A DNA stretch of 40,009 bases, from positions 1-40,009 of the forward strand of contig NZ_CALAEQ010000078.1 in assembly GCF_937891065.1 (NCBI RefSeq), written 5' to 3'. The stretch comes from an uncultured Lutibacter sp. Its GTDB lineage: Bacteria; Bacteroidota; Bacteroidia; Flavobacteriales; Flavobacteriaceae. Positions 12,084 to 14,403 of this stretch are shown piece after piece (position 1 is the first letter of the stretch; each line of letters opens with the position of its first letter). Under the pieces are notes generated by a model. That model did no database searches and was not told where the DNA came from. It was given only the letters and a program-made list of their open reading frames with translations. The translations under genes were made by a program, and so were the position numbers.

Positions 12084-12401
12084 TTACATTCCTAAAACTT
12101 TTTTACCTGCTTCACTTACCATGGTTGTATTCCACTCAGGGTAAAACACTACGTCAATGATTGTTATAAAATCAGGATGTTGCTGTTTAATGGTTTCAAT
12201 AATATCTGTTTTTATAGTCTCACCTAATGGGCATGCAGGTGTTGAAAATGTCATTACTATATTAATTTTCTTATTTCCATCGTAATACAGTTCGTAAATT
12301 AATCCCAAATCAACTATATTAATTTCAATTTCAGGATCCATTACATTTTTAAGTAACACCAATGTTTCCTCTTCAAATTGTTTTATCTGTTCTTTATTCA
12401 T
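12084..12401 (-). CDS. DUF59/MIP18 iron-sulfur assembly-type protein
   Basis: A 105-residue stand-alone MIP18 (DUF59) domain. It has the family patterns MDPEIEINIVDLGLIYEL (residues 21-38) and FSTPACPLGE with the conserved Cys57. Related domains occur in SufT, PaaD and the N-terminus of some Mrp/ApbC proteins, and act in Fe-S cluster assembly or delivery. It is not in a suf cluster here. Its start overlaps the end of the oxidase-like gene by eight bases, making it the last gene of a three-gene minus-strand operon. The client protein is unknown; context suggests a metalloprotein linked to respiration or nitrogen oxides. Confidence 0.85.
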   Translation of the reverse strand: MNKEQIKQFEEETLVLLKNVMDPEIEINIVDLGLIYELYYDGNKKINIVMTFSTPACPLGETIKTDIIETIKQQHPDFITIIDVVFYPEWNTTMVSEAGKKVLGM

Positions 12402-13683
12402 TATTACTATTTTTAACTTTATGAAATATTATTTTCAACACATTTATATTATACAAAATTGCAACAATTAAAAGTGAAAAACTTCCAATTTTAATTGCTA
12501 TAAAGCTTTTTATAATTAAACCAAGAGCTAAACTTAAAATACTGAGAACATAAAAATAGAATTGAATTTTAGCTATTTTATTTGAATACAACTCTCTTGG
12601 TAATGGTGTTTTAGTTTTTCCAACTAAATTTTTATACTTTTCTAACCAAACTATAAAAGGAAGTGTTTTATAGGTTTGACCTAAAATCATGGTTGTTATA
12701 AATCCAAATATTATTGAAAAGCCATAAAAAGTAGCTATTCTAAATAACAACTCATATTCAATTTTAAAAACAAGTAATAATATTAAACTTACTAAAATTG
12801 GCATTATAATACTTGCAATTGCAAGCATTGTATATTGCATCCCTACATCTAATTTTTTTCGAAGTCTCTTTTTATAAGAGTCATAAATGAACGACATAAA
12901 TGAAATTATCCCAATAACAATTACCGCCCAACAAAAAATTGTAAGCATACTATTTGAAAATATGAACCAGTTTAATATTAAGCACAATAACCCAACATTT
13001 ATTGAAATAAAAGAAATTACTAATTTTTCTTTTTTTAATTGGTGTGAAATTAAAAACATTGGTATTAATGTAGATCCAACGCCAATTATAAGCGACAAAA
13101 ACCAACCAATAGTTCCCAATGACGCATGTATTTTTAAATAATGTAAATGAATTTCACTTAAAAAATTAAACTTAAAATTAAATGCAATAAGCGTCCCGAC
13201 CAATTCAGTAATTACTAACCAAAAAATGGAAGCAATAATAAATTTTGATGAAATATTTTTAATTTCTGATTTTAAATAGGATAAAATTACATTTATAACA
13301 AATAAGAAAAGAGAAAGAAACATGAATACTGAAGCATAAACAAGATGCGTTGTAAATGCACTTACCCAAAATGAATACGTTAAATACAAAACGCTTGCTG
13401 CTGAAGTCCAAAAAGTGATCTTTGCCAATTTTTCACTATAAAGTGAAGTTTCAAAAACTACAGGAATCAATTGGTAGAGCGCTCCAAAAACAATCATTGT
13501 TGCCCATCCTAAAACTGCCATATGAGTTATTGCAATAATTTTAGAATTAAAATAGGCCTCTAATATATTTGTATCAGCTAAAATAATAAGCAATGCTACT
13601 ATTAAAAAAGAGCATCCACCAAATATAAAATGAGGAATTACAACACTACTATGAGGGGCATTATTTGTTTTTAAACCGTTCAA
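12394..13683 (-). CDS. heme-copper oxidase subunit I-like membrane protein
   Basis: A 429-residue protein with about 12 membrane helices, resembling a family annotated as cytochrome c oxidase subunit I-like or NnrS-like. Histidines in helix-like positions include His18, His54 (ITHMAVLGW, then GALYQLIPV) and the cluster His179, His181, His186 (HLHYLKIHASLGTIGW). These are plausible heme ligands. The set of histidines differs from a canonical oxidase, and no separate subunit II gene is present, so a true oxidase is unlikely. The start is a TTG four bases after the DUF2249 stop; the next in-frame Met is residue 55. Relatives are often found near denitrification genes; that is recalled knowledge, not seen here. 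Confidence 0.68.
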   Translation of the reverse strand: MNGLKTNNAPHSSVVIPHFIFGGCSFLIVALLIILADTNILEAYFNSKIIAITHMAVLGWATMIVFGALYQLIPVVFETSLYSEKLAKITFWTSAASVLYLTYSFWVSAFTTHLVYASVFMFLSLFLFVINVILSYLKSEIKNISSKFIIASIFWLVITELVGTLIAFNFKFNFLSEIHLHYLKIHASLGTIGWFLSLIIGVGSTLIPMFLISHQLKKEKLVISFISINVGLLCLILNWFIFSNSMLTIFCWAVIVIGIISFMSFIYDSYKKRLRKKLDVGMQYTMLAIASIIMPILVSLILLLVFKIEYELLFRIATFYGFSIIFGFITTMILGQTYKTLPFIVWLEKYKNLVGKTKTPLPRELYSNKIAKIQFYFYVLSILSLALGLIIKSFIAIKIGSFSLLIVAILYNINVLKIIFHKVKNSNNE

Positions 13684-13687
13684 TCTA

Positions 13688-14215
13688 TTAAGCTTTAAAA
13701 ATTAATAATTGTAGATGATTATCAGTTTTTTTATTATATAAAATTTCAAAGTTTCTTTCTTTTAATTCCGGTAATAAAAACTGGGGAACTTTCTTATGTT
13801 CAACAAATAAAGCATTCCCCATTGGCAACATTTCTAATTCTTCTAAAATAGTTGTCATTGGTTCTGGCATCTCTAAATCTCTAACATCAATTTGCTTTAA
13901 CTTTCCAACAAACTGTTTAAATTTTTCATCAAAAGTTGTGGTATTATTTTCTAATGAATGTTCATCGGAACTTTTTAATTCAGTCGTTTTCTTAAAATAA
14001 GTATGCACAATTCCTGCATCAGATTTCTCTGTCCAAGTTATATAACCTTCTCTTTTTAATTTATTAATTAAAGGAATGGGTTCAAAAGAATTTATAATCT
14101 CTAAGGTTTGTTGATTGTTTAGTTTGTTAACAATCTCCATAATTTCTTTAAAAGGATCATTGCCTGATGCAATAATTGGTCTAACGTCAAGACTTATTAA
14201 ATTATCATTGTTCAT
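13688..14215 (-). CDS. tandem DUF2249 protein
   Basis: A 175-residue cytosolic protein with two DUF2249-like domains. The first starts at SLDVRPI (Asp10-Arg12) and continues through LEIINSFEPIPLINKLKREGY. The second starts at QIDVRDLEMPEPM (Asp110-Arg112) and ends HLQLLIFKA. The repeated 'LDVR' start and the '-F-P-L---L' core are typical of DUF2249, a SirA/TusA-like fold of unknown function. It heads an operon with the oxidase-I-like and DUF59 genes (gap four bases, then an eight-base overlap). The joint presence of a SirA-like protein, a heme-type membrane protein and a MIP18 protein suggests redox or nitrogen-oxide metabolism, but this is inference. Confidence 0.8.
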   Translation of the reverse strand: MNNDNLISLDVRPIIASGNDPFKEIMEIVNKLNNQQTLEIINSFEPIPLINKLKREGYITWTEKSDAGIVHTYFKKTTELKSSDEHSLENNTTTFDEKFKQFVGKLKQIDVRDLEMPEPMTTILEELEMLPMGNALFVEHKKVPQFLLPELKERNFEILYNKKTDNHLQLLIFKA

Positions 14216-14318
14216 TTGTATGTTATTTTTAAAAAAATACTAATTATTATTTCTTAAGAAGTCTCATAAATAATTTCGAAATTTATATTCAAACTTTTAT
14301 GACCTTTTTATCTTCTTT

Positions 14319-14326
14319 CAAAGGTA
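14319..14326 (-). promoter_or_regulatory. -7 promoter element of the DUF2249 operon
   Basis: TACCTTTG on the minus strand matches TAnnTTTG and would give a leader of about 95 bases before the ATG at 14215. No -33 TTG is seen at the expected spacing. I looked for an FNR/CRP palindrome upstream and found no convincing one. Confidence 0.4.
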
Positions 14327-14403
14327 AATACAAAAAATATATTGACCTAATTTAGAATGATTGTAATTAAAGTAGTGTGACAAAAATCAGTAAAGAATAG
14401 TTA

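Follow-up and report, generated by a model that had tools for sequence, protein, structure and literature searches.

A co-inherited gene triplet in an uncultured Lutibacter joins DUF2249 and DUF59 proteins to an oxidase-like membrane protein with two invariant histidines and may serve iron centres

The locus described here lies in a contig of 40,009 nucleotides from an uncultured Lutibacter sp. of the Flavobacteriaceae (NCBI RefSeq assembly GCF_937891065.1, contig NZ_CALAEQ010000078.1). This whole contig was analysed and is referred to as the window. On its minus strand three genes form a compact triplet, encoding in order of reading a protein with tandem DUF2249 domains, a membrane protein with a heme-copper oxidase (HCO) fold, and a small DUF59 protein of the SufT/PaaD type. 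Positions and lengths in amino acids (aa) are given in Table 1, together with a palindrome upstream of the triplet. A gap of 4 bases separates the DUF2249 and membrane protein genes, and the membrane protein and DUF59 open reading frames (ORFs) overlap by 8 bases, an arrangement correctly read in a first annotation of this DNA made from the letters alone (the original prediction). The leading gene was also rightly named as a tandem DUF2249 gene, as Pfam finds DUF2249 (PF10006) in two stretches at 92.6 bits, above the cut-off. The DUF59 protein matches FeS_assembly_P (PF01883) at 48.3 bits, above the cut-off, and the membrane protein matches COX1 at 36.8 bits (cut-off 34.8) with the best stretch at residues 49–112.

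Table 1. Features of the triplet locus, in positions of the window.
Feature	Position	Strand	Basis
DUF2249 protein gene (tandem domains, 175 aa)	13688..14215	-	ORF call and Pfam
Membrane protein gene (heme-copper oxidase fold, 12 helices, 429 aa, TTG start)	12394..13683	-	ORF call, Pfam and predicted model
DUF59 (SufT/PaaD-like) protein gene (105 aa, invariant C57)	12084..12401	-	ORF call and Pfam
Palindrome AATTACAATCATTCTAAAT, likely operator	14350..14368	.	16/18 to ATTTAGAATnATTCTAAAT; gap between mpl and the DUF2249 gene

The gene order recurs in relatives and is not due to chance. Two sets of related loci were compared, a first set of 27 and a second set in which the 80 best were kept out of at least 550 relatives. 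In the first set, where DUF59 genes were counted as called ORFs, the DUF2249 gene is directly upstream of the membrane protein gene in 27/27 loci and the DUF59 gene directly downstream in 23/27. One upstream DUF2249 ORF (L034) has only 91 aa and falls slightly below the Pfam cut-off. In the second set a membrane protein ORF is called in 79/80 loci, L082 being without one. DUF2249 is upstream in 77 of these 79, of which 75 are inside the set limits; in L105 the overlap is slightly beyond the limit, and in L109 the gene is about 330 bases upstream. As to the exceptions, no DUF2249 gene is seen in L124, and L135 begins within the membrane protein gene. DUF59 is found downstream in 75/79 loci (66 called ORFs and 9 more by a tblastn recheck of this second set). 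Of the four loci without it, three are cases where the contig ends at that point, and L085 lacks the gene. The original prediction had looked to other genomes for routine unlinking of the three genes; on these counts linkage held. Pairwise distances of the three proteins also correlate, with r = 0.67–0.74 over 39 loci (largest value in 999 permutations, 0.27), a correlation to which common host ancestry contributes.

In the window the triplet is flanked by trkA and trkH on one side and by mpl on the other (names from the original prediction and from ORF reading). One other genome of the genus, G047, was examined, and there mpl abuts trkH with no triplet between them (L192 = G047:C96). The triplet adjoins mpl in L064, L067, and L068, and in L067 and L068 it adjoins trkH as well. 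G412 and G116 carry the triplet and mpl on separate contigs, and in two other genomes of the family that lack the triplet, trkH was not found next to mpl. The conserved gene order, the distance correlation and the empty mpl–trkH junction of G047 indicate that the triplet is gained, lost or placed as one piece, so the earlier description of a single co-inherited module stands. The membrane protein is present in 26/395 genomes of the phylum and, in a family-level search, in 3/120, the window's own genome being counted in both. A fourth family-level match (G089; tally 4/120) was set aside, as the G089 protein is CcoN. Triplets are also present in Melioribacteraceae and Neomarinimicrobiota records (L069, L070, L073, L074), with membrane proteins 53–57 percent identical to that of the window. 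These identities exceed those of many flavobacterial relatives, and therefore suggest horizontal transfer of the triplet, with binning errors as another possible source of such records.

The membrane protein of the window was aligned with those of 75 of the 80 loci after a length filter (76 rows). An AlphaFold2 model built from the 76 sequences shows 12 long helical stretches, with a predicted local distance difference test (pLDDT) of 94.0 and a predicted template modelling score (pTM) of 0.93. The best match of the model in PDB is CcoN, subunit I of the cbb3 oxidase (Z = 36.5, 394 residues, 2.8 Å), followed by nitric oxide (NO) reductase (Z = 33.8). Two histidines, H54 near the start of helix 2 and H186 near the start of helix 6, are invariant in 28/28 rows of a first alignment and in 76/76 rows of the larger one. 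Five histidines had been proposed as ligands from the sequence alone; H54 and H186 are borne out, while H18, H179, and H181, present in the window protein, appear in neither the invariant nor the 90-percent list. An excess of lysine and arginine on the N-terminal side is found in 76/76 members, which places the N-terminus probably inside, with H54 and H186 in the periplasmic half of the membrane.

Profile comparison by hhalign shows where the two histidines fall on CcoN. For the first third of the membrane protein the best counterpart is CcoN's last third (probability 97.5), with H54 aligned to H348, the second histidine of the HxH motif. The next best match, the first third of CcoN (82.9), is out of register with the histidine there. 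The second third is most similar to the first third of CcoN (93.6) and aligns H186 with H61, the helix-2 histidine. The one CcoN alignment printed from PDB (9g83_t) gives the same register for H54. The CcoN residues matched by H54 and H186 are the ligands of the low-spin heme b, and the remaining CcoN metal ligands are the histidine of the high-spin heme and the three of CuB. For these four, no invariant histidine counterpart is found in the membrane protein alignment; one of the missing positions is occupied by F322 when the proteins are aligned over their full length. Thus two of six conserved metal-ligand histidines are kept in the comparison with the CcoN profile. H54 and H186 would belong to adjacent units of the three-fold scaffold, a placement that fits a single heme. 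They are plausible candidates for bis-His ligands of a putative heme b, in keeping with the heme site first suggested for this protein. Loss of the catalytic ligands argues against reduction of O2 or NO, and the kept pair argues for a heme of electron transfer or sensing.

The membrane protein thus resembles CcoN in its fold over 394 residues and in the low-spin heme pair, but differs in having neither the HxH motif, nor the CuB and high-spin ligands, nor adjoining partner subunits in the window. It resembles NorB in fold (Z = 33.8) and in its hosts, which carry nor or nos genes, but lacks the catalytic ligands and has no NorC alongside; the nor-type operon of its genome is separate. The absence of an oxidase or NO reductase partner nearby had been pointed out before and is true of the window, in which no respiratory partner subunit is found beside the membrane protein. 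The other COX1, nosZ and hemerythrin matches of the genome are all on other contigs.

A closer likeness may be to the HCOH families, which Pei, Li, Kinch, and Grishin reportedly described in 2014 (Protein Sci) as having 12 helices and two histidines able to bind one heme. Going by that description, the membrane protein shares with them the 12-helix HCO fold, the three units, two conserved histidines and a setting of DUF2249 and denitrification. Because the 12-helix fold and the two histidines fit, the family is probably of the HCOH type. The 12 helices of the model form three four-helix units, of which the third has no clear match by hhalign. The passages of PMC11218638 on DUF2249 cite Pei et al. 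for the DUF2249 link.

The DUF2249 protein was aligned with those of 53 loci chosen by a length filter and then by hand thinning. An N-terminal DUF1858 domain is present in 44/54 members and absent from the window's copy, whose open frame has only 183 codons. Twelve relatives of the 80-locus set have a called DUF2249 ORF shorter than 215 aa. DUF1858 may have been lost more than once. In the second DUF2249 domain the motif MPxPM (116–120) and H140 are invariant in 54/54 rows. When domain 2 is aligned with E. coli TusA by hhalign, a weak match (probability 6.7 percent) used solely for register, the catalytic cysteine of TusA falls on Met116, which is methionine in 54/54 rows. No column of the alignment has cysteine in more than 20/54 rows.

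Similarity to TusA and SirA is also seen at low scores in structure and profile searches. The predicted model of the tandem protein has a pTM of 0.49, and Foldseek gives no match at E = 0.001; the weak rows include SirA-like 3hz7 (TM-score 0.75 by target, E = 0.06) and TusA 3lvj_C (0.69, E = 0.09). The TusA family PF01206 matches domain 2 with 22.6 bits, below the 28.6 cut-off. The likeness to TusA/SirA is thus accompanied by a difference at the catalytic position. With Met116 in all rows and no conserved cysteine, the protein is unlikely to be a sulfur carrier; this role was rejected, and with it the thiol accessory role suggested earlier. A contact with a metal or heme through methionine and histidine is possible.

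The DUF59 alignment (window and 44 loci, filtered and thinned in the same way) shows C57 invariant in 45/45 rows, within a T-x-x-x-x-x-C-P stretch. The protein is similar to the solved DUF59 proteins 3lno and 1uwd. It shares the PF01883 match and an invariant cysteine with SufT, PaaD, and MIP18, but differs from SufT and PaaD in lying outside any suf operon and in scoring below the NCBIfam cut-offs (72.1 vs 202.6 and 70.1 vs 143.4 bits for the SufT and SUF-associated models, and also below the PaaD cut-off). The invariant cysteine and the PF01883 match uphold the view of it as an accessory protein of the iron-sulfur (Fe-S) type. SufT itself is described, in the portion of PMC4982691 that concerns it, as an accessory factor of Fe-S maturation under high demand.

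The palindrome lies 134 bases before the DUF2249 start codon. Its consensus ATTTAGAATnATTCTAAAT is common to the upstream sequences of several close relatives, and was chosen by eye from a small number of the 75 upstream regions in which it was then counted. A site with at least 15/18 agreement is found within 300 bases upstream of DUF2249 in 17/75 loci vs 9/974 other upstream regions from these loci, a count that is not fully independent and somewhat favourable because the consensus came from those loci. Throughout the window's own genome there are 16 sites with two mismatches or fewer, vs 1 for the pattern read backwards, and 13/16 are no more than about 135 bases away from a gene start. Among these 13 are the two at C99:45046–45096, which touch the start called for a 139-aa ORF that precedes a TonB receptor. 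Of the remaining three, two lie in ORFs (C145, C251), and the third (C99:19948) has no called gene downstream of it.

Genes downstream of these sites include functions in iron and Fe-S metabolism (feoA-feoB, a SufS-family desulfurase, a TonB-receptor operon) and in respiration (two divergent sdhC-type genes with an sdhA-type gene behind, nqrA, a multiheme cytochrome c). The others are an Fe-S/NrfD protein with a molybdopterin oxidoreductase after it, YceI, a 380-aa protein with no family match, and the triplet. Such a gene set resembles Fur regulons. The genome has one Fur-family gene (C184), and the set defined by the palindrome (iron uptake, Fe-S, succinate dehydrogenase, Na-NQR) looks like the Fur regulon of this lineage. 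The palindrome is thus a putative operator through which Fur may control the triplet, and iron control appears better supported than control by NO or low oxygen. A search of the open-licence literature found no published Fur box for Bacteroidetes or Flavobacterium. A flavobacterial promoter near the palindrome was looked for by eye and none is claimed. NO control of the window's copy was rejected, this copy having no RIC or Rrf2 neighbour and carrying the palindrome instead. A RIC gene is nearby in 1/17 loci with the palindrome vs 32/58 without it, a contrast which is partly trivial because the RIC-linked DUF2249 gene is often inside a longer operon. Iron may control the stand-alone triplet, and a local Rrf2 regulator the longer form.

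The setting of the triplet in relatives was taken from the fetched stretches, up to about 10 kilobases (kb) on each side. RIC-type genes are found near it in 15/27 and 34/80 loci of the two sets, Rrf2 regulators in 14/27 and 37/80, further hemerythrin genes in 4/27 and 24/80, Crp/Fnr regulators in 10/27 and 4/80, and norB-like genes in 3/27 and 4/80. Genes of one or more of these kinds (RIC, hemerythrin, Rrf2, nos, NOR-like) are present in 24/27 and 46/80 loci. In some relatives other HCO genes are within about 10 kb. The neighbouring RIC gene is often a fusion of DUF2249, ScdA_N, and hemerythrin domains (e.g. L119:7489–8445), possibly a direct link of DUF2249 to repair of iron centres. Likeness to the RIC/YtfE/ScdA system consists of these fusions and of proximity to the triplet in many relatives; the difference is that no such gene is in the window's operon, the RIC-like gene of this genome being on C15. 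A 151-aa COX1-like protein, with a weak DUF2871 match as well, is encoded near the triplet in 9/27 and 0/80 loci (e.g. L045:8477–8929, and others among L032–L058); its size is about that of the four-helix single-unit HCOH proteins.

Over whole genomes of the phylum, nosZ is present in 24/26 genomes with the membrane protein vs 105/369 without it (Fisher p = 8e-11, uncorrected for kinship), and DUF2249 in 26/26 of the genomes carrying the membrane protein. The window's own genome contains two full nosZ genes in similar operon layouts (C112, C207) and a partial one on C68 (L154–L156). These copies may be a real duplication or may come from mixed strains, the assembly consisting of 276 contigs. 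On C15 an Rrf2 gene is followed by genes read as norC, norB, norQ, norD, RIC, a hemerythrin-type gene and norE/F. The norB-like gene scores 209 bits for COX1 and the RIC-like gene 152.9 bits, below the 204.7 cut-off; norB, norC, and norD of C15 give no NCBIfam match. The triplet thus probably works in a cell which handles NO and nitrous oxide (N2O), though not beside the nor or nos genes. The triplet had been described as alone and self-contained. At the scale of the genome this does not hold, as nor-type genes (C15) and nosZ (C112, C207) are present, and the palindrome is common to the triplet and to iron and respiratory genes.

These results suggest that the triplet has a part in the upkeep of iron centres in bacteria with nitrogen-oxide respiration. 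The reading favoured here, given somewhat less than an even chance, is that it forms an iron-regulated membrane heme-b partner for the maturation or repair of cytosolic iron centres; a role with iron centres is proposed because the partner proteins and the palindrome regulon point there. The membrane protein, its catalytic site lost, would hold one bis-His heme b (H54/H186) in the periplasmic half, and through it electrons would move between the respiratory chain and a complex formed in the cytosol by the DUF59 and DUF2249 proteins. The DUF59 protein would handle Fe-S through C57, and the DUF2249 protein would be a TusA-like adaptor in which methionine and histidine replace the sulfur-carrying cysteine. 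Fe-S and other iron centres might be matured or repaired by such a complex under iron shortage or after damage by NO. A more specific form is unlikely as stated: an iron-controlled redox machine embedded in the membrane, with the single bis-His heme between four-helix units 1 and 2, whose respiratory electrons would let the cytosolic DUF59/DUF2249 complex rebuild or repair Fe-S and di-iron sites during respiration of nitrogen oxides. If true, this more specific form would be a class of Fe-S maintenance with a direct tie to the respiratory membrane.

Several points weigh against a membrane heme partner for iron-centre care. In the protein itself, the last third has no clear hhalign match to the CcoN units, and a shallow NOR profile puts both histidines in the last third of NorB (H331, H329) rather than in two thirds; the cyclic shift of the ligands is thus clear against CcoN but not against NorB. 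As to regulation, the window alone has 2 matches to the palindrome consensus where chance gives a mean of 0.63, and 16/100 shuffles gave at least 2, so that by itself the window shows no more than chance would give; the derivation of the consensus from the loci counted, given above, belongs here also. As to context, the window's copy has neither a RIC nor an Rrf2 neighbour, and nosZ is near the triplet in 7/27 loci and in only 3/80. The idea that related sets occur near denitrification genes holds for some loci. The membrane protein is present in 26/395 genomes and nosZ in 129, so N2O can be respired without this protein. A link between the triplet and the kind of cNOR encoded in the window's own genome was rejected, as that cNOR is present at high identity in only 2/26 genomes; 4 more of the 26 have weak matches (29–31 percent) to longer frames. 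Finally, SufT is reported, in the relevant portion of PMC4982691, to have no part in the repair of clusters damaged by reactive oxygen species.

An alternative with a small chance of its own is an NO buffer like NnrS, in which the membrane heme binds NO as a histidine ligand is lost and spares iron, while nitrosylated iron is handed on or set free by the small proteins. NnrS is a heme protein of 12 helices related to NO, and it protects iron metabolism from NO. The same class of fold, the co-occurrence with nosZ in 24/26 genomes and the RIC, hemerythrin, and Rrf2 neighbours in many relatives all agree with this. Identity with NnrS was rejected, however, since PF05940 is not among the five Pfam families matched by the 76 members at E = 0.01. 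Against the buffer reading, the site also looks six-coordinate, with two histidines as in hemes of electron transfer.

Rather improbable is a sensor of nitrogen oxides of the kind proposed for DrpA/DrpB of Thermus, where DUF2249 and the membrane heme would respond to NO, nitrite or redox state and pass the signal to the genes of respiration. DrpA is itself a DUF2249 protein, and according to the sections of PMC6282519 that deal with it, loss of DrpA or DrpB alters the regulation of nitrate reductase. In Haloferax mediterranei all four DUF2249 genes rise under denitrification, as stated in the part of PMC11218638 drawn on here. In the triplet, however, Pfam at E = 1 gives no match to a DNA-binding or signalling family, and a sensor leaves no obvious place for DUF59. 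Cellular location cannot decide the matter, because DrpA, by the same sections of PMC6282519, is found in the periplasm without a recognisable signal.

Distinctly improbable is a chaperone role without redox chemistry, in which the triplet would serve the assembly of a single respiratory metalloenzyme (nosZ, nor or an oxidase). An HCO-like scaffold without catalytic ligands would suit a chaperone, and nosZ within the fetched stretch at the loci counted above would suit its client; but nosZ is also present in 105/369 genomes without the triplet, and the two candidate heme ligands are constant while the neighbours vary. That the membrane protein is a genuine oxidase or NO reductase whose active site is unusual has hardly any likelihood and was rejected, for although COX1 matches slightly above the cut-off and the fold is that of CcoN, the only two invariant histidines match the low-spin pair, the catalytic metal ligands are lost and no partner subunit adjoins in the window.

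Many denitrifiers have DUF2249 proteins and relatives of oxidases that lack a catalytic site, and a search of the open-licence literature found no tested biochemical function for the pair. The strict triplet, the two invariant ligands and the link to the iron regulon make what was a vague "denitrification accessory" open to direct testing.

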